Source: Elusimicrobiota bacterium
GTDB lineage: Bacteria; Elusimicrobiota; Elusimicrobia; Elusimicrobiales; UBA9959
Reading direction: 5' to 3'
DNA length: 37,911 bases
NCBI GenBank assembly: GCA_016207645.1
Contig: JACQPH010000150.1
Location: 1-37,911, forward strand
The translations under genes were made by a program, and so were the position numbers. Below are positions 18,115 through 37,911 of the stretch, piece by piece (position 1 is the stretch's first letter; the number at the start of each line of letters is the position of its first letter). The notes beneath the pieces were generated by a model. The model searched no databases, was not told the origin of the DNA, and saw only the letters and a list, made by a program, of their open reading frames with translations.

Positions 18115-19443
18115 TTAGAACGAAACCCCCGCAGTAAGCTGCAGCAGGAGTTTTGCTCCGGAGAAAGTGTATTCGCCATTGGCGGGGCCCAGGGGCGCGA
18201 GGACAAGGCAGCCGGCGGTGAAATCGTTCAGATTCTTATAATTGACGCCGGCCGAGAGCGCGCCGGTAGCGTCGTTGAAATTGTGGATGTAGTTGGTGTT
18301 GAGCGTAAGGTCCGTAATGACGAAGCGGCTGACGCTCAGGAACACCGCCCCGTAATAGCGGGCGAGGTAGTTGGGCGTGTAGAGGCCGTTGCCGAGCAGG
18401 AAGAGGCCTTTGGTGCCGGCTGGCAGCGCCGAGGAAAGAGGTCCGGAGAAGAGATAAAGGTTCTTGTCCCTGAACGGGCTTTTGACGTAGCCGCCCTGGT
18501 TGTAGAAGAACTCGGTGGTCACGGTGAGCCTGTCTTTGAAATTGCCCAGCCGGAAGCCCTTGCTGAAGTCCACGGCGGCCTTGGAGACCCACTCCTGGTC
18601 CTTGCGGAAGGTCTCGAGCGTGCCGTTATTGTTCCGGACGAACCGGTCGTTGTCGCGGCGCGCTACGCTGACCTCGCCGGCTATATCCACGTCCCCCAGG
18701 CGGCTGGACAGGTCGTAGCCGAAAACGGGCCGGCGGTTGCGCTTCGCCCAGCCGGAGAAGGCCATCTCGGTGCGGCCCGTCAGCAGCTCGAACTTGAGCG
18801 CGCCGCCCAGGTCGCGGTCCGTGGCGGCGCTGCCGGTGTCCAGGAAGCCGTAGATATTGTACCTGGTGCCGAAAGGCACGTGGAACTTCAGGCCGTAGGC
18901 GCCTTCGCGCGAGCCTATCTTGGGGACGAAAGGGATCTTCTCGACGTTCACCAGGTCGGTGGGGTTCCAAAGGTAGCACCGGCCCCACTGCAGCACCTGC
19001 TTGCCGGTGCGGAAATAGACGCGGTCGCCTATATTAAAATCCAGGAAGATCTCGCGCAGCGTGGCGGTGGTCTGGCGGACTTTGGGATAGTAGCTGGTCT
19101 CCAGGTTGGCGAAGGCCTTCACGCCGTTCTTCAGGCGCGCGTCCAGCAGGAGGCTGCCCAGGATATAGGTATTGAGCGGGTCGGCGGTGGAGGAGCTGTA
19201 GACCACGTCCTCCATGACGCTCACCACGCTGCCGGAGACGCCGAGGGTCTTCTTTTCCTCGGCCCGGCCGGGCGCGGCGGCGGCCTGCGTGACCACTTCG
19301 GAGCTGGAGAACAGCTCCTCTTCGGAAGGGTCGGCGGCTACCCCGAAGGTCATACCCAGCCTCGTGGGGGGGTCCTCCGCGAAAACCGCGGCGGTAAAAA
19401 TGGAAGAGAGCGCGGCCACGATAAGCAGTCTTTTCATGTTCAT
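18115..19443 (-). CDS. Predicted outer-membrane beta-barrel protein of the ABC/LolA operon
   Basis: This 442-residue protein has a signal peptide (MNMKRLLIVAALSSIFTAAVFA) and a short acidic N-terminal segment. It continues with amphipathic strands typical of a large barrel (GVKAFANLETSYYPK, DRVYFRTGKQVLQWGR, TVTTEFFYNQGGYVK) and ends LLLQLTAGVSF, a C-terminal Phe signature of Bam-assembled outer-membrane proteins. The RTGKQVLQWGRCYLWNPTD part resembles DUF1302-like barrels found beside LolA-like carriers and lipid exporters. ATG 19443 overlaps the LolA-like stop codon by four bases, so translation is coupled. It is probably the outer-membrane endpoint of the transport route. Confidence 0.72.
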   Translation of the reverse strand: MNMKRLLIVAALSSIFTAAVFAEDPPTRLGMTFGVAADPSEEELFSSSEVVTQAAAAPGRAEEKKTLGVSGSVVSVMEDVVYSSSTADPLNTYILGSLLLDARLKNGVKAFANLETSYYPKVRQTTATLREIFLDFNIGDRVYFRTGKQVLQWGRCYLWNPTDLVNVEKIPFVPKIGSREGAYGLKFHVPFGTRYNIYGFLDTGSAATDRDLGGALKFELLTGRTEMAFSGWAKRNRRPVFGYDLSSRLGDVDIAGEVSVARRDNDRFVRNNNGTLETFRKDQEWVSKAAVDFSKGFRLGNFKDRLTVTTEFFYNQGGYVKSPFRDKNLYLFSGPLSSALPAGTKGLFLLGNGLYTPNYLARYYGAVFLSVSRFVITDLTLNTNYIHNFNDATGALSAGVNYKNLNDFTAGCLVLAPLGPANGEYTFSGAKLLLQLTAGVSF

Positions 19444-20201
19444 TTGCTCAGGTTCTCGAGGTAAGCCTTGGTGAAGAGTTTGTCGTCCAGTTTGCCGGGG
19501 ACCAGGTTCGAGATCTCGACCACGGTCTTATTGCCTTTCTCGAACTCGTCTATGAAGAGCTGCTTCACGGGCACGAAGCGCCCCTCCACCTCGGTGAACT
19601 TCAGGAAATAGGCCGTCTGCATCAGCGTGCCCGACAGGGAATAGGATTCCTGCTTGAGCAGCAGATTATTGTCGCGGCGGGTCCAGAAGATCTGCTTGGG
19701 ATAATCCACGTCGTTGACCCTGGCCCGCACCTCGAACTTATTGACTTCCACCTTGCCCAGCAGCTCCAGCGAGAATTTCTCGGCGCCGGAGGGATCCAAG
19801 GCCGGCCCGTAGAGCTCCTCCAGCTTGCGGGTCTCGAAATCGTCGCTGTGCGCGTCCGTGCCGCCTATGCTCTCGTCCCGGTTCACGTGCTGGAAGGTGC
19901 GTGTGTTCTTGCGGTACATCCAGAAATTGTCGCCCACCCGCAGGTAACCGTTCCCCTTCTCGTTCTCCGGCGCGTTCATGGCTATCAGGAAGGCGTCGTC
20001 CGAGTCCCGGCGGAAATAGGCCATGTCTATTATCTTGGTCCCCTGTCCCGCCCTCTGCTGGGTCATGGTCACGTCGGCCCTGATGTCCTTGCGCATCTTG
20101 TAATTGGCGTCTATGGCCTTCAGGACGGGGACTACGCGGCTTTCGGCGCGCAGGCCGGCCGCCGGGAAGACGAGGAGCGAACACAATAGAAGTTTTTTCA
20201 T
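19440..20201 (-). CDS. LolA-like outer membrane lipoprotein-sorting protein
   Basis: This 253-residue periplasmic carrier has a signal peptide (MKKLLLCSLLVFPAAGLRA) and the concave-sheet fold pattern of the LolA-like lipoprotein-sorting family (PF17131 type). Visible features are TMTQQRAGQGTKIIDMAYFRR, FLIAMNAPENEKGNGYLRVGDNFWMYRKNTRTF, GTDAHSDDFE and the late IFWTRRDNNLLLKQESYSLSG. It would ferry a lipid or lipoprotein from the ABC exporter to the outer membrane. It lies three bases after the second permease and overlaps the barrel gene by four bases. Its divergence from classical LolA and its dedicated operon suggest special cargo rather than bulk lipoproteins. Confidence 0.85.
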   Translation of the reverse strand: MKKLLLCSLLVFPAAGLRAESRVVPVLKAIDANYKMRKDIRADVTMTQQRAGQGTKIIDMAYFRRDSDDAFLIAMNAPENEKGNGYLRVGDNFWMYRKNTRTFQHVNRDESIGGTDAHSDDFETRKLEELYGPALDPSGAEKFSLELLGKVEVNKFEVRARVNDVDYPKQIFWTRRDNNLLLKQESYSLSGTLMQTAYFLKFTEVEGRFVPVKQLFIDEFEKGNKTVVEISNLVPGKLDDKLFTKAYLENLSK

Positions 20202-20204
20202 AGA

Positions 20205-21959
20205 TCAAGTGAAATGTCCCAGCGCCTGCGCCGGAGGCATGTTCGCCGCGCGGCGCGCCGGGAACCAGGCCGTGACCGCGGCTATCGCTATTATCAGCAG
20301 CACGCTGCCGGCTATGCCGAAGAAAGTGGGCAGGAAGTACAGATGCCCGTTCACCAGCAGCATCCCCAGCGGGTTGTCCTGCGGGTGGAAAGTGATGAGC
20401 GAGACGAGCTTCATGGCCGCGAAGCCCGTCAGCACCCCGGCGATGGAAGAGAAAAGGGTCAGGAAGAAGGTCTCGAGCAGGAACATAGCGTGCACGTCGT
20501 TGCGCTGCATGCCGATGGCGCGCACGGTGCCTATCTCCCGGGTGCGCTCCCGGATGGTCATGCGCAGGGTGTTCACCACGCCCAGCAAGATGATGAAGAA
20601 GAGCACCAGCACGGCCGAAAGCGTGATGATGTTCAGCACGGATTCCAGCTTGAGGATATCGCTGGCCGTCTCGTACATGGTGGAGACGTCTATGGTGGTG
20701 CCTTTCCACTTGTTGCGGGCTATTTCCTGGTACTTCAGCTTGTACTCGTCGGTATTGTAGGTGCGCTTAAGCAGCACCCATTCCGGCGCCGCCAGGGCGC
20801 CCCAGGGGCCCTCCGCCGTGTAAGGCTTCGCGCCCGGTCCGGGGCCGGCCGGCAGGTCGTCGTAATAAAGGTCGTAGAAGCCGGAGTCGTACAGCAGCAC
20901 CACGTCCTGGCCGGGATAAGCCCCGGCGCCGCAGACCGCGCTTACCTCGAGCCTGGCTTCACGCGGCGTTCTCTCGAATTTCCTGTCATAGCGCACCGTA
21001 AACTTGTCGCCGGCGCTCACGCCCAGGGCGCGGGCCAGGGGGACCGGGAGTATGACGCCTTCCTTCCTGAAGGCTTTCTCGAAGCTGCCCGAAGAGAGCT
21101 TGAGCAGCTCCGAGAGCTTCTTTCTGGACCCGTCGTCGCTCTTGAAGCCGATAAGCGTCACCGGCCTGCGCCCGGCGCGCCCGGCGGCGGAGGCGTAGAT
21201 GGCGGCGGTGCCGGGCTTGAGGCGGTCGTGGATGCGGTCGGCCAGGGCCGCGGCGTTCTTCTGCGGGTCCTTTATCTTGAGGCTCAGGCTGGGCGTCTCG
21301 TAAGGCCGGAAGCCCAGCAATTCCTTCGTCCTGCCCAGCTCGAGGAAAACGACCGGCTGCATGAAGATATTGTCGTTCTTCATTATCCCGACTATGGTCA
21401 GCCTGGCGGCCTGGTCCTGCCCGAACATATTGCGGAAGCGCACCCGCAGCACGTCGTTCATCTTCACGTTGAGGTACTGGGCTTTCTCGGCCGAGATCAC
21501 CACCGGGTTCTCGGCCTTCTCCCCGTTCACATCGTCCCAGCTGCCTTCCACCAGCCTGAACGATTCCTCCAGCTCCCGCAGGCCTTCCCTGCTGACGGGC
21601 TTCTTCGTATCCGCCCCCACCAGGATTATATTGTCGGAGCGGCCGTTGCCGATGGCGCGGGCGAACATGGCTATGGCCTCGCTGGTTTCCTCTATGTCGG
21701 GCTCGCCCTTCACGGCCTCCAGGGCGCGCGCCCGGTCGCGGAAGATCTCGCGCATCACGCCGCCGCGCTCGTTGAAGCGTATGGCCACGTGCCCGGTGAC
21801 GTAGCGCATGATCTTGTTGAACATGATGTCCGAAATGCCGTGGGAGAAGGAGTTCGCGACCACCAGAATGGCCACGCCGATGGCCATGGCGGAGCCCAGC
21901 AGGATATTCCTGCGCTTCTGGCGCAGCAGATTCCTCAGGCTAAGTCGTAGCAGCAGCAT
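20205..21959 (-). CDS. FtsX/MacB-family ABC permease (second permease)
   Basis: This 584-residue inner-membrane permease has an N-terminal helix (about 20-42), a large periplasmic MacB_PCD-like domain (about 45-420) and three C-terminal helices of the FtsX domain (about 435-575). The coupling motif REIGTVRAIGMQRNDVHAMF follows the second helix, as in LolC/LolE and MacB. It would form a heterodimer with the permease encoded just upstream and be driven by the ATPase at 23634-24320. The start codon immediately follows the previous stop with no gap, so translation is coupled. The 165-residue-longer periplasmic part, compared with the roughly 415 residues of LolC/E, points to a specialised substrate. 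Confidence 0.88.
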   Translation of the reverse strand: MLLLRLSLRNLLRQKRRNILLGSAMAIGVAILVVANSFSHGISDIMFNKIMRYVTGHVAIRFNERGGVMREIFRDRARALEAVKGEPDIEETSEAIAMFARAIGNGRSDNIILVGADTKKPVSREGLRELEESFRLVEGSWDDVNGEKAENPVVISAEKAQYLNVKMNDVLRVRFRNMFGQDQAARLTIVGIMKNDNIFMQPVVFLELGRTKELLGFRPYETPSLSLKIKDPQKNAAALADRIHDRLKPGTAAIYASAAGRAGRRPVTLIGFKSDDGSRKKLSELLKLSSGSFEKAFRKEGVILPVPLARALGVSAGDKFTVRYDRKFERTPREARLEVSAVCGAGAYPGQDVVLLYDSGFYDLYYDDLPAGPGPGAKPYTAEGPWGALAAPEWVLLKRTYNTDEYKLKYQEIARNKWKGTTIDVSTMYETASDILKLESVLNIITLSAVLVLFFIILLGVVNTLRMTIRERTREIGTVRAIGMQRNDVHAMFLLETFFLTLFSSIAGVLTGFAAMKLVSLITFHPQDNPLGMLLVNGHLYFLPTFFGIAGSVLLIIAIAAVTAWFPARRAANMPPAQALGHFT

Positions 21960-23468
21960 TCAATCCCTCGAAACGGCGTCCAGCGGGGTTATATTCACGG
22001 CCACCCGCATCGGGTACAGGGCGGCGACCACGGTGACGAATAAAAGCTGGAGGGCCGTCAGGGCTATGTCGGGCAGGCTGAGCAGCGGGTTGAAGAAATT
22101 CCCGCCGTAAAGCAGCTGCAGCATGTCGTTCTTCGTGTTTATCTTCAGCAGCGGTATTATCTTCACCGCCGCTATGCCGGCCAGAACGCCGAGACCGCCG
22201 AAGACGGCCGAGAGCACGGCCGTCTCGCCCAGGAACATGCCGGCTATGAAGGTCTTCTGCGCGCCGATGGCCCGCATCATGCCTATCTCCGGGGCGCGCT
22301 CCAGCGCCGCCATGGTGAGCGTATTGACTATTATTATCACGGCCACGCAGAACAGCAGCATGACGAACAGGAACAGCGCGCCCTTGATTATCAGGGCCAT
22401 GCCGCCTATGGGGCCGGAGGCCTTGTTCCAGGTGACGGCCCGCACGCCCTTGCCGGCGAGCGCCTTGTTCAGTTCCTTCAGCGCTTTGCCGTAGTCCTCG
22501 CCTTCGTTCAGCTTTATGAAGACGGCGTTATAGACCCCGTCCCCGGCCAGTTTGGCCTCTTTCGGCGCCTCCGCTTTCAGCTTCGGGGCTTTCTTCGCGG
22601 TGGAGACTATCATCTCCTCGCCGCCGAACATGGAGTCCAGGTCGGAACCTTCCAGCTCCAGTAATTTCTTCTCCTCCCGGGGCACCTGGGCCGCCATGTC
22701 GGCGGCGGTGAAATAGCCCAGGCATTCCCGGTAGGATTCTATGTCCACCAGGCAGAAATGGCCGAAGATCTGGTTGAGCGCGCCGTACCTGTTTATCCCG
22801 GTCACCGGGAAGCGGATGTCGTTGGTGGTGTTCAGGCCGCTGGTCATGCCCATCATCACCACGCTGGTGCTGAGGTTCAGGGTCGGAAAATTGGCCAGCG
22901 CCTCTTTCTTGAGGTTCTCTTTCACCACGCGGCCGCCGGCGGGCAGGAACCAGATATTGTAGAAATCGTAGAATTCGTCGCGCGCGAAAGTGGGGACGAG
23001 GAGGGCGCGCTCCCCGGGGGCGGGATAGCTGCCCTCCAGCACGGTGAAGTTGTCGGGGAACATCTTCCGGTATTCGCCGAAATCCGCGCCCAGGAGGTAG
23101 GCGTAGCCGGGGGCGGTGGTGCTTTCGTCCAGGACCATGGCGAGGTTCTTGCCGACGGGTAGGAAGCGCTTGACGTAAGGCTGGGCGGCGAGTATGCCCT
23201 TGATCTCCCTGTAGGCGGTTACCGGCTCGATGCTGGCGCCCATCATGGGCAGCAGGATATTGTCGCTCTTCTGGGCGTCGCTGATCAGCACCAGGTCGCC
23301 CATGAAGCCGTCTATGATATTCTTCTCTATGCCCGCGGCCATGCCGGAGATGACGCCGTTGCCGACGGTCATCAGGAAGGCGCCGGTGAACAGGATGACG
23401 CCTATCACGAGGCTTTTTCCTTTGTGGCGGAGAATGTTGCGCCAGGCTATGGTCAGGATAAGGTTCAT
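21960..23468 (-). CDS. FtsX/MacB-family ABC permease (first permease)
   Basis: This 502-residue permease has the same architecture as its neighbour. It has an N-terminal helix in AWRNILRHKGKSLVIGVILF, a periplasmic domain (about 45-365), and FtsX helices with the coupling motif PEIGMMRAIGAQKTFIAGMF. ATG 23468 matches the family start (MNLILTIAWRN). The open frame continues to 23603, but only by reading through the palindromic element at 23493-23599. The two permeases differ in sequence and probably form a heterodimeric LolCE-like pair. Confidence 0.88.
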   Translation of the reverse strand: MNLILTIAWRNILRHKGKSLVIGVILFTGAFLMTVGNGVISGMAAGIEKNIIDGFMGDLVLISDAQKSDNILLPMMGASIEPVTAYREIKGILAAQPYVKRFLPVGKNLAMVLDESTTAPGYAYLLGADFGEYRKMFPDNFTVLEGSYPAPGERALLVPTFARDEFYDFYNIWFLPAGGRVVKENLKKEALANFPTLNLSTSVVMMGMTSGLNTTNDIRFPVTGINRYGALNQIFGHFCLVDIESYRECLGYFTAADMAAQVPREEKKLLELEGSDLDSMFGGEEMIVSTAKKAPKLKAEAPKEAKLAGDGVYNAVFIKLNEGEDYGKALKELNKALAGKGVRAVTWNKASGPIGGMALIIKGALFLFVMLLFCVAVIIIVNTLTMAALERAPEIGMMRAIGAQKTFIAGMFLGETAVLSAVFGGLGVLAGIAAVKIIPLLKINTKNDMLQLLYGGNFFNPLLSLPDIALTALQLLFVTVVAALYPMRVAVNITPLDAVSRD

Positions 23469-23492
23469 TTTGAGATTCCGGGTTCGGTGTGA

Positions 23493-23599
23493 ACGGGGAG
23501 TTCCCCCGCTCACCCTGGAAGATGGAAACCCTTGCGTCGGTTTCCCCCCGCCAGGCGGGGCCCCCCCTTCCGCAAAGGGTGATCGGGGGAACTCCCCGT
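23493..23599. repeat. Palindromic repeat element inside the ABC operon
   Basis: The 24-bp arms 23493-23516 and 23576-23599 are complementary except for one mismatch. Inside, a second pair of arms is visible near 23527-23535 and 23571-23580, and a GC hairpin near 23545-23561. The whole element forms a nested cruciform-like hairpin between the ATPase and first-permease genes. It looks like an inserted REP/MITE-type element. Confidence 0.8.
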
Positions 23600-23633
23600 C
23601 CACACCTCCGAAAGAACTGAATTTTATATGTCT

Positions 23634-24320
23634 CTATGCCGGCGCGGGCTCCTTCTCTATCAGGCCGTCCTTGATCTTTACTATGCGCCTCGCGTATTTC
23701 AGCACGTTGGCGTCGTGGGTGGAGAAGATAAAGGTGGTCTTCTCGAGCTCGTTCATGCGGCGCATCAGCTCCAGGATGGAGGCGCCGGTGACGGAGTCCA
23801 GGTTGGCGGTGGGCTCGTCGGCGAGGACTATGTCCGGGTTGGTGACCAGGGCGCGGGCTATGGCCACGCGCTGGCGCTGGCCGCCGGAGAGCTCGGCCGG
23901 GCGGTGGGCGGCGTATTCCCGCAGGCCCACCTCCTCTATAAGCTTGTCGGCGCGCCCGCGCGCCTCGGCGGCGGAGCTCTTCATCAGCAGCAGCGGGAAC
24001 TCTATGTTCTCGATGACGTCGAGGACGGGGATGAGGTTGAAGGTCTGGAAGATGAAGCCTATCTTGTTGAGGCGGATCTCGGTTATCTGCCTGTCGGTGA
24101 GCGCGGTTATGTCGCGCTCCCCCACCCTGACGGCGCCGGCGGTGGCGGAATCTATGCAGCCTATCACGTTGAGCAAAGTGGTCTTGCCGCTGCCGGAGGG
24201 ACCGATGATGCTCATGAAGTCGCCCTCGGCCACGTCCAGGTCCACCCCGCGCAGGGCCGGGACTATGGTGTCGCCCAGGGGATAGTCCTTCTTGAGGCCT
24301 TTTATCTCTATAATATTCAT
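23634..24320 (-). CDS. LolD/MacB-type ABC transporter ATP-binding protein
   Basis: This 228-residue ATPase has all the hallmarks: Walker A GPSGSGKT at 40-47, Q-loop in FIFQTFNL near 90, signature LSGGQRQRVAIARAL at 144 onward, Walker B IVLADEPTANLD at 164 onward and the H-loop in FIFSTHD. The sequence groups with the LolD/MacB/FtsE class, which uses ATP to drive mechanotransmission by FtsX-type permeases rather than transport through a channel. It is the first gene of the six-gene operon; GAGGGA precedes ATG 24320. A TAAAAT box at 24340-24345 with TTGATA 15 bases further upstream could be the operon promoter, although that spacing is short. Confidence 0.93.
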   Translation of the reverse strand: MNIIEIKGLKKDYPLGDTIVPALRGVDLDVAEGDFMSIIGPSGSGKTTLLNVIGCIDSATAGAVRVGERDITALTDRQITEIRLNKIGFIFQTFNLIPVLDVIENIEFPLLLMKSSAAEARGRADKLIEEVGLREYAAHRPAELSGGQRQRVAIARALVTNPDIVLADEPTANLDSVTGASILELMRRMNELEKTTFIFSTHDANVLKYARRIVKIKDGLIEKEPAPA

Positions 24321-27595: not shown

Positions 27596-28750
27596 TCATT
27601 CCGTTCTTTCCGGCTCCTGGTACTCGCACCTTTCTATCTCGCCGGAAGGGCCGTCGAAGACCAGGGTAAAACCGTCGGAGAAAGTCGCCTTGTAGAAATC
27701 GGAACGCTGGTCCGTGGCCGCCGTGAAGATGCCGGTTACCTTCTCGTCGTAAGACAGTTTCCACTTGTCCAGCTCGGTCCTGAGGGAATCGGGGTCCCGC
27801 TTTTCCGGCACCGGTACGTACTTGTAGTCCATCACTTCCCGGAACTTCACCCATTCCTCGGCTTTCACCATGTTCTGGTAGCCGCGCCGCCTGGCCAGCA
27901 GCCGCATCTTCAGCCTGGCGTAGGACCTTTCCGGGTAGTAGCAGTCCAGGATATCCCCGGCCTCGTCGAGCTGCAGCACGAAGCCGTCGGGGAAGTAGAC
28001 CTTGAAATAGCCCTCGCCGCCGGCCCCGATGGCGTCGCAGTTGGCGGCGGAGCAGTAAAAGTACACCCTGTTCACGGTCTCGGCCGGGTAAGCTTTCCAG
28101 ACCTCGGTCTCGAAATCGGCCAGCTTCTCCCTGCCGCCCAGCGAGACTATGGAAAGCCTCGTGGCCAGGCTGCCGGCTTTCAGCCTGGCGAATTCCGTCC
28201 ATTCCGGGGTAGCAGTCACTTTAACCCGCTGTTTCGCCAGGGCCCGGAGGGCGGCGCGCACGTTGCGCGGTTCCACCGGCCCGGCCCAGTCCCGCGCCAC
28301 CGTTATCCGCACCGCGGCCATTACCGCGCCTCCGTCGGTATTCACCAGCCGCGCGTTCAGCTCGGACCAGCCGTCCCCCAGGTTGGCCGTCATGCCGGTG
28401 ACCAGCGCGTCCACTTCGAATTCATCATCGAGCTTCTCCGCCAGTTCGGGGCCGGCGCCGTCTTCCGGCTTGAAACCGAGTTCGCCGAGGACCTTGGAGA
28501 TCCGGCCGGAGTCTATGACGGTGAACTTACCCAGGTTCACGAGCTCGGTGGTCAGGCGCTCGCCCAGCATCCGGCCGTCCATGGAAGTGCCGGTGCTCTC
28601 GGCGCAGCCGAAAGGCAGCACGGCCACGGTCTCTATTTTCTTCCCCGCCAGGGCGGAGAGCCGCTCGGCCAGGGTCCGGTACGGGCTTTCGGCGGCGGCT
28701 GCCGGCCCCGCAAGAAAGACCATGCAGGCGATAAACGAAAAGATCTTCAT
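27596..28750 (-). CDS. FlgO/CsgG-like secreted protein
   Basis: This 384-residue protein has a signal peptide (MKIFSFIACMVFLAGPAAAA). A FlgO/CsgG-type nucleotide-fold domain follows (about 22-165): YRTLAERLSALAGKKIETVAVLPF, GRMLGERLTTELVNLGKFTVIDSGRISKVL and FEVDALVTGMTANLG. The C-terminal half holds two similar segments, VYFPDGFVLQLDEAGDILDCYYPE and ATFSDGFTLVFDGPSGEIERCEYQE, an apparent internal duplication. Its start follows AGGAAG and a good promoter. It belongs to the same broad fold class as the lipoprotein at 1106-1720 but lacks a lipobox. The role is probably structural or in envelope assembly; the partner is not evident. Confidence 0.72.
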   Translation of the reverse strand: MKIFSFIACMVFLAGPAAAAESPYRTLAERLSALAGKKIETVAVLPFGCAESTGTSMDGRMLGERLTTELVNLGKFTVIDSGRISKVLGELGFKPEDGAGPELAEKLDDEFEVDALVTGMTANLGDGWSELNARLVNTDGGAVMAAVRITVARDWAGPVEPRNVRAALRALAKQRVKVTATPEWTEFARLKAGSLATRLSIVSLGGREKLADFETEVWKAYPAETVNRVYFYCSAANCDAIGAGGEGYFKVYFPDGFVLQLDEAGDILDCYYPERSYARLKMRLLARRRGYQNMVKAEEWVKFREVMDYKYVPVPEKRDPDSLRTELDKWKLSYDEKVTGIFTAATDQRSDFYKATFSDGFTLVFDGPSGEIERCEYQEPERTE

Positions 28751-28851: not shown

Positions 28852-29769
28852 TTATTTCCCCAGGCGGTAGGTAAGGCCCAGGTGGTGGGTGGTGCCGAGC
28901 AGGCCCATGGTCCTGAAGGCGTAATCGCAGGACAGGCTGTTCAGCGCCAGGCCGAAGCCGGCCGAGAGGCCGTTGACGCCTTTAGTGTCGGCGGCGGAAG
29001 TATTGTAGCCCGCGCGCCCGATAAGCTTCCAGGCGCCTTTCCGGGCGAAAGCGTATTCGGCTCCGGCCGCCGCCCAGGCGGTGCCGTCCTTTGGGAAATT
29101 GAAATCCGCCGCGAAATTCCAGTTCTCGACGTAATGCACGTTCACCCCGAACCGCAGGTTCACCGGCAGCGGGGACTCCTCTTTATTGAACTTCAGCCCT
29201 TTGCCCATGTTCTGCGCCGTGAAACCCATCGAGAAGCTTTCATCGTACATCAGCAGCCCGAAGTCCAGGGCTGAAGTGGCCGCCAGGCCCGAGATCTTCG
29301 AACTTATATACTTCGCCGTCGCTCCGGCCATGACATCCTCGCCCAGGCTGAGGCCGTAACCGGCCGCGAAAGCGCTGTCCTTCGGCGAAAGTGTGCCGGC
29401 CGGGGCGCCGGTATTATCCAGCGACTTCATGCTGCCGTACTGCAGGTACTGCGCCCCGACGCCTATCACGCCCCCGCTCTTCAAAGGCAAAGCCAGGCCC
29501 AGCACGTCGTAGGAGATATCCTCCACCAGCAGAGAGTGGCTGAAGGAAAAAGCGACGGTTTTATTGGAAACGAGCCCGGCCGGGTTCTGAAATAAAGCCA
29601 TAGGCCCCGAAGCCGCTCCGGCCACGGCCTCGCCCATGCCGGCGCCGCGCGCTTCCACCGGCAGCTTGAGGAAAGGGACGGCGCCCGTGCCCGAGGTATT
29701 GGCGCAGTACCCCTGGCGCGCGGCGGCGCACAGCAGCAGGGTCAGAATTATCCGCAGGGTCTTTTTCAT
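28852..29769 (-). CDS. PorV/PorQ-family outer-membrane barrel protein
   Basis: This 305-residue protein has a signal peptide (MKKTLRIILTLLLCAAARQGYC) and the FadL-like barrel pattern of the PorV/UPF0164 family. It begins VPFLKLPVEARGAGMGEAVAG, has the family motif LFQNPAGLVSN, and continues with alternating strands to the end (GLTYRLGK). PorV proteins of the type IX system pull cargo with a C-terminal domain through the outer membrane. Its ATG overlaps the stop of the giant gene by four bases (ATGA), so the two are translationally coupled. A weak 5-bp hairpin follows. It could also be only a structural barrel; no other Por genes are in the window. Confidence 0.85.
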   Translation of the reverse strand: MKKTLRIILTLLLCAAARQGYCANTSGTGAVPFLKLPVEARGAGMGEAVAGAASGPMALFQNPAGLVSNKTVAFSFSHSLLVEDISYDVLGLALPLKSGGVIGVGAQYLQYGSMKSLDNTGAPAGTLSPKDSAFAAGYGLSLGEDVMAGATAKYISSKISGLAATSALDFGLLMYDESFSMGFTAQNMGKGLKFNKEESPLPVNLRFGVNVHYVENWNFAADFNFPKDGTAWAAAGAEYAFARKGAWKLIGRAGYNTSAADTKGVNGLSAGFGLALNSLSCDYAFRTMGLLGTTHHLGLTYRLGK

Positions 29770-32700
29770 CTTTCTACCGCTATCTTGAGTATCTTAATGC
29801 TCGACCCGGACTTGATATGCGCCAGGTAGACGCCGCTGGCCGCCTTCACGCCGGCCGAGTTCTTCCCGTCCCACACCTTCACGCCCAGGTCCAGGGAAGT
29901 TAGTTTCAGTTCACGCACCAGCTGGCCGGTTATGGTGTAGATCTTTATTTCGGTCTTATCGGTCAGATTGTCGAAAGTTATGCCGTCCGTACCCAGCGCG
30001 GAATCGAACCTGCCGCCGGAACCGGGGCGCCAGGGCAGCGGGTAGGCCCTGGCCGAATTGATATTGGCCGCCTGCGGCGCGAACAGGGCGAAGAAGCTGA
30101 AATGCGTGGTATGGCCGGTCACTTTCTTGCCGGCCAGGTCCACCACCGAAGCGAGGTCGCGTTCCCAGGGCCCGGCGGCGCTGTGCGCCGAGTACATCTC
30201 CAGCTGGCTGGCCAGCATGGTGGTGCCGTCCACTATGCCGTTATTGTCCGCGTCGGGGAAGAGCAGGGTGACCGCCGCGGTCTGGCCGCCGGCGAGCACG
30301 CTCTGGTTGGAAAGGACCACCTCCGTCACTATCCCGGTGGCCGCGGCGTCGGCCGGGGCGGGCGGGACCACGGCGGGATTATTGGTCACGGCCACCGTGG
30401 CCGTGGAGGCGTCGAGGGCTCCCGCCGGTATCACCAACTTGGTGACCTGCGCCGACACGGGGTCCGCGGCCTGCAGGGTGTTGGGGACCAGATTGTTGAC
30501 CTTCTGTTCCTTGGTCGCCTTGCCGCCGGAAACGTTCTCGACGATATCCGCTTCGGCGGCGTCCACCGTTATGGTCACTGAAGCCGGAGAAGGGTCTGAA
30601 ACGTTCCCCAGATCGGTGGCCACGGCGCGCAGGTCGTAACCGCCGGCGGCCAGCCCCGTCACGTCCCAGTGTATGAAGTACGGGGAAGTGGGGTCCGGGT
30701 TGGGATGTTGGCCGGGGTCCTTGGGAGGTATGTTCAGCCAGGCGGCGGAGGAAGAAGGCTTGTACTGCAGCCTGACGTTCTTGGTCTCGGCTATGGCGCC
30801 GGTCACCAGTTCCGCCATCACCGTCACGCTGTTGCCGTTCACTTTCTTGCCGGTCTGCGGGATCTTTATGGAAGCGCGGACCCCGGTCAGACTGTAAATG
30901 GAAGCCGCGGCGGCCAGCACGCTGGTATTCTGTTCCTCTACGCCGCAGCGGTGCGCGGCCCGCAGGCCGAACTTATAGGCCGCGCTCGAGGCCAGCACGC
31001 CGGTGGTATAAGAGGTCTGGAGGGCCGACAGCGAGGCCAGCGGCGCAGCGTAGTCTATGCTGCCGTCGCCGGCGTCATAGTAGAGGTTATAGCCGGTTAT
31101 GCCTTCAAAAGGCGCGGGTTCCCAGTCCAGGGCTATACGGCCGCCGGCCAGGGAATGCGCCGAGAGGTTGCCCGGCGGCAGGGGGATGGGGTTGCCGGTG
31201 AAGCCCGGACCCGCTTCCTCATATTGCGTGGGGATGCCGGCGCGGTTCAGGTTCCAGACGCGGAAATAATAGCTGGTGCAGCCCAGCAGCCCGGCGTCGG
31301 TATAAGTAAGGCCGGTAGTGAGGAAAGTCGTGCCGGTATTCACGCGCTGAAGCTTCGCCGTTGTTCCGGCCGGGTTGCCGTTCAGGCCCCAGATCAGGGT
31401 AGCGCTGGTGGCGTAGACCGCGGTGACAGCCGCCCCCGACGGCGGATAGGCCAGGGTGGCCACCGCGGCGGCGGCCGGCGAAACGGAGCCCTCGCCTGAG
31501 GAGTTCACACCCGACGCCACTATGCTGTAAGTAGTATTGGGGCTGAGCCCTTCCTGGATATAAGCTGGAGCCGGAGGCGAAGCCAGCAGCGCGGCCTGGG
31601 CCGTGGCGGGATAGACCTGGTAGCTGATAGCGCCGCTGACGGTCGCCCAGCTCCAGGTTATCGACGAGACGCCCAGCGCCGAGCCGGACGGCGCCGCCGG
31701 CGGAGCCGGCAGCAGGGGCTTGGTGGCGGTGGAGCTCACGGCGCTGAAATCGCTGAAGACGCCGTCGCCGTTCGCGGCGCGTACCTTGAAGTAATACTGC
31801 GTGCCGGGCGAGAGGCCGGAGACGGTGTAGGAACCGGCCGCCGAGGTAGCTATCACCGCCCCGCTGAAATCCGCGCTGGCGCCGCGCCACAGTTGGTACC
31901 CGGTACCGGAGGGATTCCCGTTGGCCGGCCAGGTTAGCCCTAATACGGTATCCGTTCTCGCGCCTATAACAGGCGCGCCGGGCGCCGTTGCGAAAGTATA
32001 GTAAGTCGCCGACTGAGCGAGCTGGCCGCAGCCTTCGGAGTTACAACCCGCTATCTTCACCGAGACCGGCGTATTGGCGGGCAGCCCTGCCTGCACATAT
32101 GAAGCGCCTGCGGTACTGAAAGCTATGCTCTCCAAAAGCGCGCCGGAAGAAGAGAATACCCCGTAGCTGTCCGCGTTCGCCACGCTGCCCGCTTCCCAGG
32201 TCCAGTAAACCGAGGTGGAGCCCAGCACCGTACCGAGCAGGCCCAAAACCGAGCCTGTGGCTGGAACTACATGGACCAGAGTCACCACAGGGCCAAGGTA
32301 GACGTAGGGAGTCGGTATCCAGCCGCTGTTGTAAGCCCTGAGCCTGGCGTAGTAAGTGGTGCCTTCCGTCATACCGAGCTGCCATACTTTTAACTGGTCC
32401 TGGTGGGTTTGGTATACGGCGGGCAGAGCGGTTTCGAACGAAGAGGACACCGACATCTGGAAGAGATAATAAGTATGCGGGGGGTTCGCCCCGGTGGACC
32501 ACATGACGCCGGCGCTGGAATAGGCTATGCCGATGAAGGCGGCCCCGGACGGCGTCATCGCCAGGGTGGCCTGCGCGTCCGTCAGCAGGTAGCCGAAGCC
32601 GGACGAGGTGGAGACATAGCCGAAATAAGTGGTGTTCGGCGTCAGGCCGGTCAGCGTGTACCCTGCGGCGGTGGTGCTGGCGCCTAAGACCGGCTGCGCG

Positions 32701-35700
32701 GCATTGGGCGCCGTGGCCAGGCGCACGTAATAGACGGTGCCGGTGCTGTAAGTGCTTTCCCAGTTCACGGTCAGCGAGCTCACAGCCACGCCGGTGAAAG
32801 GCAGCGCGTTCAGCTCCGGCGGCGGTGGCAGGATAAAGGTGAAGGTGCTGACCAGGGCTTCCGAGAGCTGCACGTTGCCGGCCAGGTCCGTGGCGCGGGA
32901 AACCGCGAAGTAAGTGGTTCCCGAAGTCAACTGCGCCTCCGGGAGGCCGTCATAAGACCAGGTGACGCTGCCGGCGGCCAGGTTCCAGGCTTGCGCTACT
33001 GTCCACTGGGAAATAGCCCCGTTCCAGTACCGGTCGTCGGAGGTGCGCTTCACCCCCACCCAGAGCTGCGCCGTGAAGGATTCAATATCCACGGCTGTTC
33101 CGCTCAACCCGGAGAAAGAAGGAATAGCGGCCCCGGAAGCGGGAACGGTAACAGCCGAATTAGGCAGCCCGGTGTCGAAATAGAAGACAGCGGTGGAATA
33201 AGCTACGGACACGCCGCCCGCGTTATCCATCGCTCTCGCCGCGACGCTGTAGGAGGCCCCGTTCACCCAGGCTGGAGTGGCCGAGAAGCTCCAGGAGGGA
33301 GATGAAACCGATGCCTCCAGCCAGCTCTGCGGCGCTGCCCAGGCCGCGCCGTTCCAATAATAACCGTCGGACAGGCGCATGATCCCCACAGCCACGCTGG
33401 ACACCTGCACGTCGTCCGCCGCGGTGCCGGTCAGCGCCGTCAGCGAGTTCCGGTAGGAATAATTCTGCGGCTGCAGTATGGCTACCGTGGGCGGCGGGTT
33501 ATAGTACTCCAGCAGCACTACCGGCGAGACATAGGCGTAGGAAGTCGGCACCCCGTCGCCGTTCACAGCGCGCACCCGGCCGTAATAGGCAGCACCCGGG
33601 GTAAGCCCGGTCACCCAGGCCGACGAGGCCGTCCCCGTGCCGCTGGCCGCGCTCACGCTGAAAGCTGAGGACAGGGAAATTTCATATTCGTAAAGAGTGC
33701 TTCCCGGGTTGATCCCTCCATCCCAGCTGAAAGCGACGCTGGAATAAGACGCACCGCTGAAAGCCGCCGAGGAAGGCGCGGCGGCCAGGGTATAGCGCGT
33801 CACAAACTCTGAAGCGGAAGAACCGGAGACATTGAAAGCTTCCACCCGTCGCGTATACGCGGTATTCGCCTCAAGCCCGGTTTCCATCCATGCAACCGCG
33901 TCCTGCACCAGCCCGCCCGACATATTCCCCCCGCTGGAGCTCAGCACCCTGTAGCCGGTTTCATACAACACATCGTTCCACGTCCAGGTTATCGACGAAA
34001 CCCCCGCTGCGGAAGCGGAAAGCGATGGCGCCGCTGGAGGGATATAGTAAGCGAATACGCTGGTGGCATAGATCACCGACCAGTTACCGACGGGATCTCT
34101 CGCTATCGCCGCCACGGTGTACGAAGAGCCGGACACTAAGGCAGGGATATTGGCGTAGGTCCAGGACGAAGGGAATACCTCCGCGCCCAGCCAGGCCTGG
34201 CCGGCCGACCATTGCGTACCGTCCCAGAACAGGCCGGTATCCGACCGCAATATGGACAGGGCCACAGAAGAGACAACCACATTATCCACGGCGGTGCCGG
34301 CAATAGAAGCCAGCGAAGTGACGTTGGAAAGATCTGCCGGGGTTAGGATCGCAACTGTGGGCGGGTTTACGTCGCCAAACGGGCCGGAGTAGACAAAAGT
34401 GCTGCCGCCTACTTCAGTCGTCTGCACATTGTTCGCCAGGTCCAGGGCGCGCGACAGCGCGTAATAAGTGTTGCCGTTGGTCAGCAAAGCTTCGGTAAGG
34501 CCGTTATAGGTCCAGGTGAAGCTGCCGGCGGCCAGGTTCCAGGCTTCGGCAGCCCCCCAGACCGCCGAACTGCCGTGCCAGTAATAACCGTCGGAAATGC
34601 GCCGTATCCTGACCTCGGCCCGGTCGGCGAAAGATTCATTATCCCAGGCGGTCCCGGCTATGCCGCTGAAAGTGGTCAGGACCGGAGACGAGGAAGGCGC
34701 GGTTATACCGGACACCGGGAGTCCTACATCGTAGTAGAACACGGAAGTAGAATAAACCGCGGACCAATTGGAGGAACTGTCCATAGCCCTGGCGAAAACG
34801 CTGTAGGAAGCCCCGTTCAGCCACGCGGGCATATTTGAGTAACTCCAGGCGGTAGTCGAAAGCGAAGCGTCCAGCCAGGTCTGCGTCGGAACCCATACCG
34901 CGCCGTCCCAGTAATAGCCGTCGGCCATGCGCATTATCCCGGCCTGCACGCCGGTCACCAGCACATTATCCGCCGCGGTGCCGGTGAGGACGGCCAGTGA
35001 ATTCCTGTACGAATAATTCACAGGCTGCAATATGGCGGCCGCTGGAGGCGTATTATCGGTATCCGGCAGCCAGTCCACGTAGCCGCCGGGATCCCTTTCA
35101 TAAATGGAACCGTACTTCAGGCCAAAAGCGTCGCGCATGGTGATACGCGAGCCGGAACCGAGCAGGCTGCCGTCCACGTTCACGCCTATGTCCGCGTCGT
35201 TGAAACCTATGCCGGTGAAGGTGGAAACGAAGGCGCCGCCGAGGAAGTTTATCGCCGTGGTATTGGGCGGCAGGGAATTGAAATTAATGCCTGACACTGC
35301 AAGGACGGCCCCGGCAGCCTGGGCGTCTATGCTCAGGCCGTAAAACGCCCCGCTGACGGTATTGGAGGCGAGGGTGATAGTTCCGGTATTGCCGGTATTA
35401 AGAAATATCCCGGTTGCCGGCGCGCTTACCTCGTTACCCTCTACGGAAATGTCCCGGCTGGTATCCAGCCTCAGGCCCGTGCCGGCGGTATTGGTAGCCG
35501 CGATGATGTTGTAGGAAACGGTTGTGCCGGTAGAGTCCCGGATAAAGAGCCCGTTGGCGCCGTGCACATACGAATTCTGTACCGTGTTGTAGTCCGAGGC
35601 GTCTATGAACACGGCGTTATACGCCCAGGCGGCGCTGGTTATGGTGCTGTAGCTGACCAGGTTCCACCCGCCGAACACCGAGGTAAGCGCCACGCCGGCG

Positions 35701-37911
35701 GGATTGGAGATCATGTTATGCGAAACGGTATTGGAAGCCACGCTGACCAGCTTTACCGCGAAATAAGCCGCCGCCCCGCTGTTTATGGTGCCGGAGCTGA
35801 TGTTGTTCCGGTCGGCGCCGTAACCAATGAAAACTCCGTAGCCGGCGGGGTTGGAGATATGGCACCGGCTGACCGTATTGGAAACCGAATTGTCGATATT
35901 AAAAGCCATGTAGGTGGAATTGGCGGTGATGGTGCTGAGGGTCACGCTATTATTATTTGAACCGCTGCCCAATTGCGCGCCATAGCCGGAGGGGTTATAA
36001 ACAAAGCTGTTGTTGACATTATTGCCAGAGGACTGTAAAAGACGCAGGCCGGCGCCGGCGCCCCCGCCGGTTATCACACTTTGGGTCACGGTGTTATAGT
36101 CGGAGCCGCCGGCAAGACTCAGCCCATGACCGGCCGGATTGCTGGCCGTAACCACCTGGAAAATATTGGAAGAGGCTCCAGCCAGATGAACGGCCGCATA
36201 TAGGCCGCTGTTAGACCGGGAAAGCGTGTTGGAAAGAGTATTTCCGGAGCCGTTCAGGTAAATACCGTAAGCCCCGGCCACGGCGGCCGTGGAACCTGAG
36301 ACGGAACAGGCGGTGGACAGCGCTATGCCGGCCACGGATATGTTCCCGCCGGCGTCCTGCACGTCCACGTTCAAGAGCGCGGCGGCTTCGGAAGAGACCC
36401 GTATGCCGTAGGGCACGGCCGTGGAAGGAACTATCCTGAAACCTGAAATGGTGACGCTGGCGTTCAGCACCCGGAAAGCCGCGTTGGAGGCGGCCGGCGG
36501 GCTGACGGCGGGTGAGGAACTGACGAAAGCGGGATCGGCCAGGATCTTCAGCCGGTAGCCGTTGTTCTCCATCCCCTGTACCGTCACCTGCTCGGCGTAA
36601 GTCTGCGTATCGCGCACTATCACGCAGGCGTCCCCGGAGATAACGCGCGGCAGCGCGTCCACGGCGGCCTGTATCGCAGTGAAATCCCGGGACCCGTCCT
36701 GCTTCACGTTGAAACCCTGAGCGCAGCCTGCCGGCAGCTCGCTTTCGAAATGGAAAGTGCTGGTAGAATAGTTCGCCGTCCAGTTGCCCGAAGAGTCCCT
36801 GGCCCTGGCGTTGATGGTGTAGGTAGTGCCGTCGACCCAGAGCGGCATGCCGGAATAGGTCCAGGAGGAAGCGAAACCCGTCCCGTCCAGCCAGGTGCGG
36901 CCGGCGCCCCAATCGGAGCCGTCCCAGTAAAGCCCGTCGCCCAAAACGGAAACCGTCACCGAGGACACAGCCTCGTCGTCGGAAGCGGTACCGGAGACCA
37001 GGGAAAGCGCATATAGATAAGAGCCGTCGATAGGCTGCAGTATAGCCGCCGTCGGCGGCGTAGAATCGGCCAGCGTGGCGGTGGATCTTCGGTTTAAAGC
37101 GAAAGCGGCGTCGGTTTCCGTGGATAATTTGACTTCGAAATAATAGTTGGTAGCTGGGGACAGGTCAGTGAACACCTTTGAATTCGTTCCCACAGCCGAT
37201 GAGGACACGATACTGCCGTAGCCGCTGTCGGACGCCAGCACGGCGATATAATTCGCTCCCGCGATAGACGTCCAGGAATAGGTCAGGCTGGAGGAATGAA
37301 CGGAGCTTAAGGCGGGATCCAAAGGCGTTATGAAATCCCCGAGGTAAGTGTCGTACAGGTCGGCCGAGGAAACGGCCGCTGTGCCATTATGCCCCCCGGT
37401 AACCAATACTTTGCCGTCAGGCAGCAGGGTGGCGGCATGCGAGCCCCTGCCTACGCTCATTGAACCTGCGGCGGTAAAGGTGCCGGCGGCCGGGTCATAT
37501 AATTCCACGGCAGACCAAATGTTTGTAGAGCCATCCGCCCCTGCGGCTACCAGCACCTTGCCGTTAGGCAGTATGGTCGCTGTAAATATCTGCCTTAACA
37601 CGCCCATTGAACCCGTGGCGGAGAAAGTACCGGCGGCCGGATCGTATAATTCTACCGAGGAAAGGGTTCCGCCGGGATTAGCCCCGCCGGCGACCAAGAC
37701 TTTGCCGTTCGGCAACAACGCGGCGGTATGTCTCCACCTGGCCGCGCCCATAGAACCAGTGGCTGAAAAGGTGCCGGTGGCGGGATCGTATAGCTCATTG
37801 GAGGAAAGGATCACATTATTGCTGAATCCGCCGATCACCAGCACCTTGCCGTTCGGGAGCAAGACCGCGGGACACTGCTGGCGCGCCGCGCTCATCGAAC
37901 CCGTCGCTGAA
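29766..37911 (-). CDS. Giant secreted kelch/beta-helix/FN3 surface protein with FlgD-like C-terminal domain (5' end missing)
   Basis: At least 2,714 residues are present and the frame is open to the window edge, where SATGSM continues a kelch unit, so the internal ATG 37895 is not the start. Domains (residues from 37895): four kelch-like units of about 49 residues (1-185, LLPNGKVLV.GG), an FN3 (190-275), one Ig-like domain with YWDGxxW (275-385), a NosD-type right-handed beta-helix (390-945, many NTVS/NNIS turns), three Ig-like domains (950-1283), two FN3 (1287-1465), two more Ig-like domains (1467-1690), a run of FN3 (1692-2330), two further Ig/strand-rich domains, and a FlgD-like C-terminal domain (2610-2709, TITGQLVRELKL, VWDGKN, GVYLAHIKSG). 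The C-terminal domain resembles type-IX sorting domains. It is a probable adhesin or polysaccharide-binding protein. Confidence 0.9.
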   Translation of the reverse strand, partial: SATGSMSAARQQCPAVLLPNGKVLVIGGFSNNVILSSNELYDPATGTFSATGSMGAARWRHTAALLPNGKVLVAGGANPGGTLSSVELYDPAAGTFSATGSMGVLRQIFTATILPNGKVLVAAGADGSTNIWSAVELYDPAAGTFTAAGSMSVGRGSHAATLLPDGKVLVTGGHNGTAAVSSADLYDTYLGDFITPLDPALSSVHSSSLTYSWTSIAGANYIAVLASDSGYGSIVSSSAVGTNSKVFTDLSPATNYYFEVKLSTETDAAFALNRRSTATLADSTPPTAAILQPIDGSYLYALSLVSGTASDDEAVSSVTVSVLGDGLYWDGSDWGAGRTWLDGTGFASSWTYSGMPLWVDGTTYTINARARDSSGNWTANYSTSTFHFESELPAGCAQGFNVKQDGSRDFTAIQAAVDALPRVISGDACVIVRDTQTYAEQVTVQGMENNGYRLKILADPAFVSSSPAVSPPAASNAAFRVLNASVTISGFRIVPSTAVPYGIRVSSEAAALLNVDVQDAGGNISVAGIALSTACSVSGSTAAVAGAYGIYLNGSGNTLSNTLSRSNSGLYAAVHLAGASSNIFQVVTASNPAGHGLSLAGGSDYNTVTQSVITGGGAGAGLRLLQSSGNNVNNSFVYNPSGYGAQLGSGSNNNSVTLSTITANSTYMAFNIDNSVSNTVSRCHISNPAGYGVFIGYGADRNNISSGTINSGAAAYFAVKLVSVASNTVSHNMISNPAGVALTSVFGGWNLVSYSTITSAAWAYNAVFIDASDYNTVQNSYVHGANGLFIRDSTGTTVSYNIIAATNTAGTGLRLDTSRDISVEGNEVSAPATGIFLNTGNTGTITLASNTVSGAFYGLSIDAQAAGAVLAVSGINFNSLPPNTTAINFLGGAFVSTFTGIGFNDADIGVNVDGSLLGSGSRITMRDAFGLKYGSIYERDPGGYVDWLPDTDNTPPAAAILQPVNYSYRNSLAVLTGTAADNVLVTGVQAGIMRMADGYYWDGAVWVPTQTWLDASLSTTAWSYSNMPAWLNGASYSVFARAMDSSSNWSAVYSTSVFYYDVGLPVSGITAPSSSPVLTTFSGIAGTAWDNESFADRAEVRIRRISDGYYWHGSSAVWGAAEAWNLAAGSFTWTYNGLTEALLTNGNTYYALSRALDLANNVQTTEVGGSTFVYSGPFGDVNPPTVAILTPADLSNVTSLASIAGTAVDNVVVSSVALSILRSDTGLFWDGTQWSAGQAWLGAEVFPSSWTYANIPALVSGSSYTVAAIARDPVGNWSVIYATSVFAYYIPPAAPSLSASAAGVSSITWTWNDVLYETGYRVLSSSGGNMSGGLVQDAVAWMETGLEANTAYTRRVEAFNVSGSSASEFVTRYTLAAAPSSAAFSGASYSSVAFSWDGGINPGSTLYEYEISLSSAFSVSAASGTGTASSAWVTGLTPGAAYYGRVRAVNGDGVPTSYAYVSPVVLLEYYNPPPTVAILQPQNYSYRNSLTALTGTAADDVQVSSVAVGIMRLSDGYYWNGAAWAAPQSWLEASVSSPSWSFSATPAWVNGASYSVAARAMDNAGGVSVAYSTAVFYFDTGLPNSAVTVPASGAAIPSFSGLSGTAVDIESFTAQLWVGVKRTSDDRYWNGAISQWTVAQAWNLAAGSVTWSYDGLPEAQLTSGTTYFAVSRATDLAGNVQLSEALVSTFTFILPPPPELNALPFTGVAVSSLTVNWESTYSTGTVYYVRLATAPNAAQPVLGASTTAAGYTLTGLTPNTTYFGYVSTSSGFGYLLTDAQATLAMTPSGAAFIGIAYSSAGVMWSTGANPPHTYYLFQMSVSSSFETALPAVYQTHQDQLKVWQLGMTEGTTYYARLRAYNSGWIPTPYVYLGPVVTLVHVVPATGSVLGLLGTVLGSTSVYWTWEAGSVANADSYGVFSSSGALLESIAFSTAGASYVQAGLPANTPVSVKIAGCNSEGCGQLAQSATYYTFATAPGAPVIGARTDTVLGLTWPANGNPSGTGYQLWRGASADFSGAVIATSAAGSYTVSGLSPGTQYYFKVRAANGDGVFSDFSAVSSTATKPLLPAPPAAPSGSALGVSSITWSWATVSGAISYQVYPATAQAALLASPPAPAYIQEGLSPNTTYSIVASGVNSSGEGSVSPAAAAVATLAYPPSGAAVTAVYATSATLIWGLNGNPAGTTAKLQRVNTGTTFLTTGLTYTDAGLLGCTSYYFRVWNLNRAGIPTQYEEAGPGFTGNPIPLPPGNLSAHSLAGGRIALDWEPAPFEGITGYNLYYDAGDGSIDYAAPLASLSALQTSYTTGVLASSAAYKFGLRAAHRCGVEEQNTSVLAAAASIYSLTGVRASIKIPQTGKKVNGNSVTVMAELVTGAIAETKNVRLQYKPSSSAAWLNIPPKDPGQHPNPDPTSPYFIHWDVTGLAAGGYDLRAVATDLGNVSDPSPASVTITVDAAEADIVENVSGGKATKEQKVNNLVPNTLQAADPVSAQVTKLVIPAGALDASTATVAVTNNPAVVPPAPADAAATGIVTEVVLSNQSVLAGGQTAAVTLLFPDADNNGIVDGTTMLASQLEMYSAHSAAGPWERDLASVVDLAGKKVTGHTTHFSFFALFAPQAANINSARAYPLPWRPGSGGRFDSALGTDGITFDNLTDKTEIKIYTITGQLVRELKLTSLDLGVKVWDGKNSAGVKAASGVYLAHIKSGSSIKILKIAVER
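37345..37911 (-). repeat. Tandem 147-base kelch repeats
   Basis: About four units of 147 bases (49 residues) are visible at roughly 37461, 37608, 37755 and 37900, each encoding a variant of ATGSM...LLPNGKVLV. DNA identity between units is high by eye. The array continues past the window edge. Confidence 0.75.

Follow-up and report, generated by a model that had tools for sequence, protein, structure and literature searches.

In the type IX system (T9SS) of Bacteroidota, every type A cargo travels on one and the same PorV, and for type B cargos there are cognate PorP/SprF shuttles, whose genes commonly lie directly downstream, according to the account given in PMC12618676. In Porphyromonas gingivalis, PorZ was described as retaining its C-terminal domain and binding the PorQ barrel, and it was suggested in the same account that cognate PorV-like barrels shield such domains from cleavage (PMC10202324); the opposite pairing, of PorZ with PorV, is given in the account of PMC8545088. 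For Poribacteria, proteins matching TIGR04183 were described in 2014 in genomes without Por genes, with the export route left open in that description (PMC3909097). The T9SS appeared confined to Bacteroidetes in the survey of PMC4793230, and its genes were stated to be absent outside the FCB phyla in the 2024 account of PMC11285876. Among the top-ranked papers of broad searches in the open-licence literature, we found no description of a T9SS-like system in Elusimicrobiota.

We analyzed a stretch of Elusimicrobiota DNA, here called the window, which is 37,911 nt long and constitutes one whole contig (G000:C128) of a 2.80-Mb draft genome (81.2% complete). Its last part holds a giant gene and an overlapping gene for an outer-membrane barrel. 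We consider it likely that together the two genes form a single cargo-carrier cassette, belonging to a type-IX-like system for export across the outer membrane in Elusimicrobiota. The features on which the comparison rests are as follows.

29766..37911, minus strand: gene for the putative giant cargo protein, an open reading frame of at least 2714 codons that is open at its 5' end
29769..30056, minus strand: predicted C-terminal sorting domain (CTD), a PorZ-like type A T9SS CTD formed by the last 96 residues of the giant
29766..29769, minus strand: ATGA overlap, in which the coding-strand sequence holds the stop codon of the cargo and the start codon of the carrier
28852..29769, minus strand: gene for the putative private outer-membrane carrier of the PorV/PorQ family, 305 aa (NF033709, E 6.5e-52)
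29383..29439, minus strand: carrier loop, residues 111-129, predicted from model strand order and covariation to be extracellular and CTD-facing
29161..29202, minus strand: carrier loop, residues 190-203, predicted on the same basis to be extracellular and CTD-facing
28975..29001, minus strand: carrier loop, residues 257-265, predicted on the same basis to be extracellular and CTD-facing
27596-28750, minus strand: gene with weak, sub-threshold similarity to FlgO/LpoB, 101 nt behind the PorV gene

The giant gene is incomplete because the contig ends at position 37911, and for the same reason the ATG at 37895 is merely the first start within the window. Its product was found by Pfam to contain kelch repeats, a right-handed beta-helix, fn3 domains and bacterial Ig domains. 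The preliminary description had reported that this gene and the PorV-family gene overlap by four bases, and the ATGA is indeed present. The gene at 27596-28750 is possibly in the same operon as the PorV gene. It had no relative among the loci compared except copies of the window itself, and was therefore excluded from the cassette. Elsewhere in the window, also on the minus strand, are genes for a peptidyl-arginine deiminase family protein (PF04371; 5684-6886), which has a hydrophobic N-terminus and is without a CTD-like end, and for FIST sensor domains fused to a nucleotide cyclase domain (10415-12388). Besides, a gene run at 19440-24320 of the same strand encodes an ABC ATPase, two FtsX/MacB-like permeases and a LolA-like lipoprotein sorting protein.

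The giant had been proposed to end in a domain of the kind used as a type IX sorting signal. This proposal was confirmed by TIGR04183, which scored 26.2 bits (cut-off 23) on the last 115 residues alone and 18.4 bits, below the cut-off, on the whole 2709-aa giant. On the same 115 residues, the PorZ model scored 44.8 bits (its equivalog cut-off of 260 is meant for the whole protein), and FlgD_ig of Pfam gave a sub-threshold match in the giant (23.5 bits, cut-off 27). The AlphaFold model of the window CTD (pLDDT 89) had its best PDB matches in PorZ (5m11) and PorU (6za2), both at E <0.001; the next match was 8glk_D, the CTD of NucA caught in the translocon of the T9SS (E 0.0014). Also, a CTD profile matched PorZ at E 4.3e-17 and 8glk_D at E 0.0039, together with FlgD and others. 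The alignments used for the structure comparisons comprised 53 CTD members and 47 carrier members chosen from cassettes, and the PorZ model matched all 53 of these CTDs. Some CTDs of the same genome resembled type B domains. CHU_C was over its cut-off in C152 and C119, and in C83 by whole-protein score only, with no single stretch passing; the C150 CTD was just under it (25.4 bits, cut-off 27). These type B-like CTDs (C152, C119, C150 and C83, at loci L051, L053, L052 and L054) precede PorV-family genes, not PorP/SprF genes.

The assignment of the barrel to the PorV family, made in the same description, held as well. The carrier matched the PorV/PorQ family model NF033709 with 177 bits (cut-off 90) and the Pfam PorV model with 29.3 bits (cut-off 27), and it matched the solved PorV structure 6h3i_F at E 2.3e-7, and by profile at E 7.8e-39. 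It was below the equivalog cut-offs of both PorV (80.8 of 250 bits) and PorQ (128 of 220 bits), scoring higher with the PorQ model than with the PorV model. Its AlphaFold model (pLDDT 91.6) had PorV of the translocon as top PDB matches (8gl6_F and 6h3i_F), with FadL-type barrels next. The sidedness of its loops is taken by us to be as in FadL/PorV barrels. A PorP/SprF identity of the carrier was rejected, with scores of 21.3 bits for TIGR03519 (cut-off 90.55) and 21.7 bits for Pfam PorP_SprF (cut-off 22.3); TIGR03519 was matched at E<=0.001 by 3 of the 47 aligned carriers. A 317-residue stretch of the C74 carrier was missed by Pfam and recognized by NCBIfam.

These similarities allow a different reading, in which the PorV-like barrel does no more than anchor a surface protein or act as its porin partner: the FlgD-like Ig domain would bind the barrel without being a T9SS signal, and the cargo would be exported by another route. 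FlgD structures are indeed among the CTD matches, both by profile and by fold, and the best models of the pair, PorZ and PorQ, are machine parts, not a cargo and the general carrier. However, TIGR04183 was matched at E<=0.01 by 46 of the 53 CTDs, and a SprA homologue is present in the genome. We regard this reading as unlikely, and the distribution of SprA described below argues further against it.

With regard to the cargo-carrier cassette, we found that the arrangement recurs well beyond the window. The own genome contained 19 PorV-family matches. With the weakest (C33) left out, 18 were inspected, and 15 of these are immediately preceded, on the same strand, by a gene whose product has a CTD-like end; 10 of the 15 CTDs were recognized by single-sequence search, those of C83 and C150 by CHU_C, and those of C133, C153 and C51 by eye only. 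The proteins of C133 and C153 gave no CTD match in Pfam. Their cassettes (L046 and L047) are very similar to each other, CTD and PorV alike, and represent either a recent duplication or, possibly, an assembly copy. In nine relatives, 88 of 150 CTDs among the matches listed have a PorV match within 700 nt directly downstream, against a chance expectation of about 0.4 that assumes random placement and rounded genome sizes. These figures refer to the 150 of 214 PorV matches and the 150 of 193 CTD matches that were listed, among which no CTD and PorV neighbours in reverse order or on opposite strands were found. The spacing was also tight, with an overlap of exactly 4 nt in 22 of 95 cassettes and a gap of at most 30 nt in 66 of 95. 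For the cassette set, the 88 pairs of the relatives were reduced to 83 by omitting those from G007 and G034 and 3 whose PorV match was short; 80 of the 83 were used.

Since the two genes are found side by side again and again in this genome and in the phylum, with the identical 4-nt overlap in those 22 cassettes, the arrangement exceeds chance. The possibility that the pair is an isolated curiosity was rejected, as the arrangement is present in the own genome and in the nine relatives. Not every CTD is paired: among the 150 listed, 62 had no listed PorV behind them, and four CTD genes of the own genome (C105, C13, C100 and C94) were on contigs without a PorV match. PorV-family carriers reach up to 41 per genome in some Elusimicrobiota. 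A hydrophobic N-terminus after an early start codon, as a Sec signal would have, was seen by eye in 10 of the 11 other own-genome cargos listed, the exception being C119. Some CTDs of the relatives are on very long open frames, namely 17613 codons in G028:C11:39372, 17343 in G037:C6:90185, 16223 in G086:C54:24880, 14446 in G110:C35:268892 and 13077 in G030:C6:189638; for the CTDs in G086 and G110, a PorV match is listed no more than 700 nt downstream.

The preliminary description made its case hang on the presence, elsewhere in the genome, of some other Por component and of some other protein with this CTD. Many such proteins were found, and so was a SprA-like protein. The latter, 1781 aa long, matched TIGR04189 at E 8.1e-40 (136 bits, three stretches aligned), which is under the equivalog cut-off of 200. 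A profile of 20 SprA-like proteins matched nothing but SprA in the PDB (6h3i_A, E 3.2e-35); Pfam found no SprA domain in the SprA-like protein, and a single SprA-like protein had no PDB match by phmmer. SprA-like proteins occurred in 129 of 149 genomes of the phylum, including 113 of 122 good ones, and in none of 14 control genomes. A scan of named genomes yielded 340 confirmed SprA-like loci, and the best 80 of the 340 belonged to MAGs named Elusimicrobiota, Elusimicrobia or Elusimicrobiales, some labelled just "bacterium". These named relatives bear out the Elusimicrobiota lineage on which the original proposal was conditional. The SprA homologue, the many CTD proteins and the frequent pairing support the suggestion of a divergent type-IX-like system with dedicated cargo, whose role would be export.

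SprA and CTDs were mostly lost together. In one family, CTDs were detected in 4 of 20 SprA-negative genomes versus 18 of 20 SprA-positive ones, and PorV in 10 of 20 versus 20 of 20, where the SprA-negative genomes are all negatives of the phylum survey and the SprA-positive ones were hand-picked. Of the four genomes with CTDs but no SprA, three are fragmented assemblies, and in one the CTD is a fragment with a stop. This partial co-loss of CTD and PorV genes with SprA is confounded with genome reduction. In addition, at 5 of 6 loci from one genus of that family (L266-L270), sprA belongs to a gene string that also includes a CTD-like, a PorV and a ComF-like gene. The CTD profile recovered 4 of the 5 CTD-like genes of these strings. 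The CTD-like proteins of L266 and L270 matched CHU_C of Pfam weakly (18.8 and 16.8 bits, cut-off 27), those of L266 and L267 had no NCBIfam match, and the carrier in these strings has a long C-terminal extension and a sub-threshold PorV-family match of about 60 bits (cut-off 90). Both the shared string and the joint loss argue against the barrel serving as anchor or porin partner alone, and for the cassette as part of an export system.

The two members of the cassette were also found to be tied to each other in divergence. Among paralogous cassettes within a genome, CTD and PorV distances were correlated at r=0.73, whereas shuffles gave 0 +/- 0.05 and none of 1000 reached the observed value. 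This sample comprised 94 cassettes from 8 genomes and 550 pairs, one of the 95 cassettes having been dropped for a truncated PorV. The three long predicted extracellular loops had been defined from the model in advance. Their co-divergence with the CTD went beyond that of the strands (partial correlation 0.37, 0 of 1000 shuffles); the same measure was 0.13 for the plug and 0.07 for the periplasmic turns. None of 2000 random block sets exceeded the loop value of 0.319, the best one tying with it to three digits. The divergence of the CTD is thus matched by that of its carrier, above all on the carrier side predicted to be extracellular.

A simpler explanation of both correlation and adjacency is the mere duplication of two-gene units, with no specific recognition between their products. 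Cassettes do duplicate as units, for example in the case of C133 and C153. Also, the passenger next to the CTD correlates with PorV distances and with the carrier loops (0.27 versus 0.31 for the CTD). However, the CTD-PorV correlation remained when only deep pairs were considered (r=0.35, 0 of 1000 shuffles), and it peaks on the side predicted to be extracellular, with little signal in the periplasmic turns. When CTD and passenger were controlled jointly over all genomes, the CTD retained 0.332 and the passenger 0.135; the wider set of extracellular turns in this analysis was defined after seeing the profile. Genome by genome, the passenger value was above that of the CTD in 3 of 7 genomes (G028, G045 and G110; in G110 the CTD reached only 0.08), and in G037 the periplasmic turns (0.56) were as good as the extracellular ones (0.58). 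On balance, duplication as the whole explanation seems rather doubtful, and the co-divergence is consistent with cognate binding between the CTD of the cassette and its carrier.

The part of the preliminary proposal that concerned the remaining Por components fared unevenly. The SprA homologue was found, and homologues of the motor proteins PorL/GldL and PorM/GldM and of the ring protein PorN/GldN and a C25 sortase were not, in searches without a positive-control genome. GldM and GldN each gave a single chance-level match in 31 genomes (E 0.011 and E 0.045, respectively). GldL gave none over the cut-off in 60 genomes, 24 of which matched at E<=1 versus 9 of the 14 unrelated controls. The best GldL-like match (G033, 24.7 bits, E 1.8e-5) was judged to be noise because unrelated controls match too. 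Peptidase_C25, the model for the PorU sortase, matched 0 of 31 genomes and no control genome either. As SprA was found in 0 of the 14 controls, these component searches are without a positive control. The system was accordingly classed as a T9SS-like outer-membrane module and not as a T9SS, with GldL, GldM, GldN and the C25 sortase undetected on that footing.

The surroundings of sprA were also inspected at 21 loci (L080-L099 and L004/L005), where a ComF-like gene was present in 19 and LptF/LptG permease genes in 18; the family names were checked on two loci. The ComF-like gene encodes a zinc-ribbon phosphoribosyltransferase, presumably of the ComF kind. A linkage of sprA to a motor gene was rejected, as the most widely shared neighbours at the 21 loci were the LptF/LptG permeases and the ComF-like gene. 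The position beside LptF/LptG is a possible link of sprA to LPS transport genes.

Two readings turn on the motor. A conventional T9SS could be complete after all, its motor, ring and sortase having diverged beyond the reach of the profiles used. SprA itself is under its equivalog cut-off, so that shorter components could be missed; the control set probably lacks a T9SS genome, given that SprA was seen in none of its members; and there is the one GldL-like match in G033. However, the GldM and GldN matches were at chance level, GldL was over the cut-off in none of the genomes and most of the unrelated controls matched it, and the widest-shared neighbours of sprA included no motor genes. We find a complete T9SS highly improbable. 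The failure to find a motor counts in favour of the barrel as a mere anchor partner. It also allows the tentative proposal, to which we give somewhat less than even weight, that Elusimicrobiota run SprA-PorV-CTD export without the PorL/M motor and PorK/N ring. Such an outer-membrane module would be older or reduced; the giant cargos would each supply the barrel that takes them out and anchors them, and the driving force would be a different energy source, or capture and folding on the outside.

For the cassette as an export unit, the following course can be suggested. The Sec pathway would deliver the giant protein to the periplasm. From there its Ig-like CTD, already folded, would pass into the SprA-like channel, whose gene is located elsewhere in the genome. 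The extracellular loops of the co-translated PorV/PorQ barrel, docked at the side opening of the channel, would catch the CTD, and the CTD cargo would then be pulled out laterally together with its own barrel. In this way the private barrel would be carrier and surface anchor at once. The barrel probably stays bound as a permanent anchor of its cargo, as suggested by the PorZ-like CTD, the higher score with PorQ than with PorV, and the failure to find a C25 sortase. Secretion, the order of steps, cognate binding and anchoring are what we infer here from homology, gene arrangement and co-divergence.

With a SprA channel and, in some Elusimicrobiota, dozens of PorV-family carriers in a single genome, the T9SS would become known from a wider range. 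Natural carrier-signal pairs in Elusimicrobiota would help to decode recognition, and the system would test whether a rotary motor is essential to such transport. For a phylum that is mostly uncultured, it would further hint at the way in which giant proteins are displayed on the surface.

Compared with the T9SS of Bacteroidota, the likeness lies in the SprA homologue, in the PorV-family barrel, whose model has PorV as its best match, and in a type A CTD resembling the translocon-bound NucA CTD. In contrast, Elusimicrobiota are another phylum, have many PorV copies versus one general type A carrier, and show no detected GldL, GldM, GldN or C25 sortase. Their SprA-like proteins are also shorter, with about 1730-1940 aa versus 2403 aa for SprA of Bacteroidota. 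With the type B CTDs and PorP/SprF of Flavobacterium johnsoniae, as described in PMC12618676, the cassettes share a carrier gene directly downstream, cognate pairing and the occurrence of orphan cargos too; they differ from that described system in mostly having type A-like CTDs and PorV/PorQ carriers, with marginal PorP/SprF matches. The described PorZ-PorQ pair is matched by the CTDs, all 53 of those aligned fitting the PorZ model, and by a carrier that leans to PorQ. However, PorZ is described as one part of the machine, whereas in Elusimicrobiota a PorQ/PorV-like barrel of its own goes with many a giant cargo. As in Poribacteria, T9SS-type CTDs occur outside Bacteroidota and part of the machinery went undetected; missing machinery was likewise noted in the description of that group (PMC3909097). 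Unlike Poribacteria as described there, Elusimicrobiota have a SprA homologue and paired PorV carriers.
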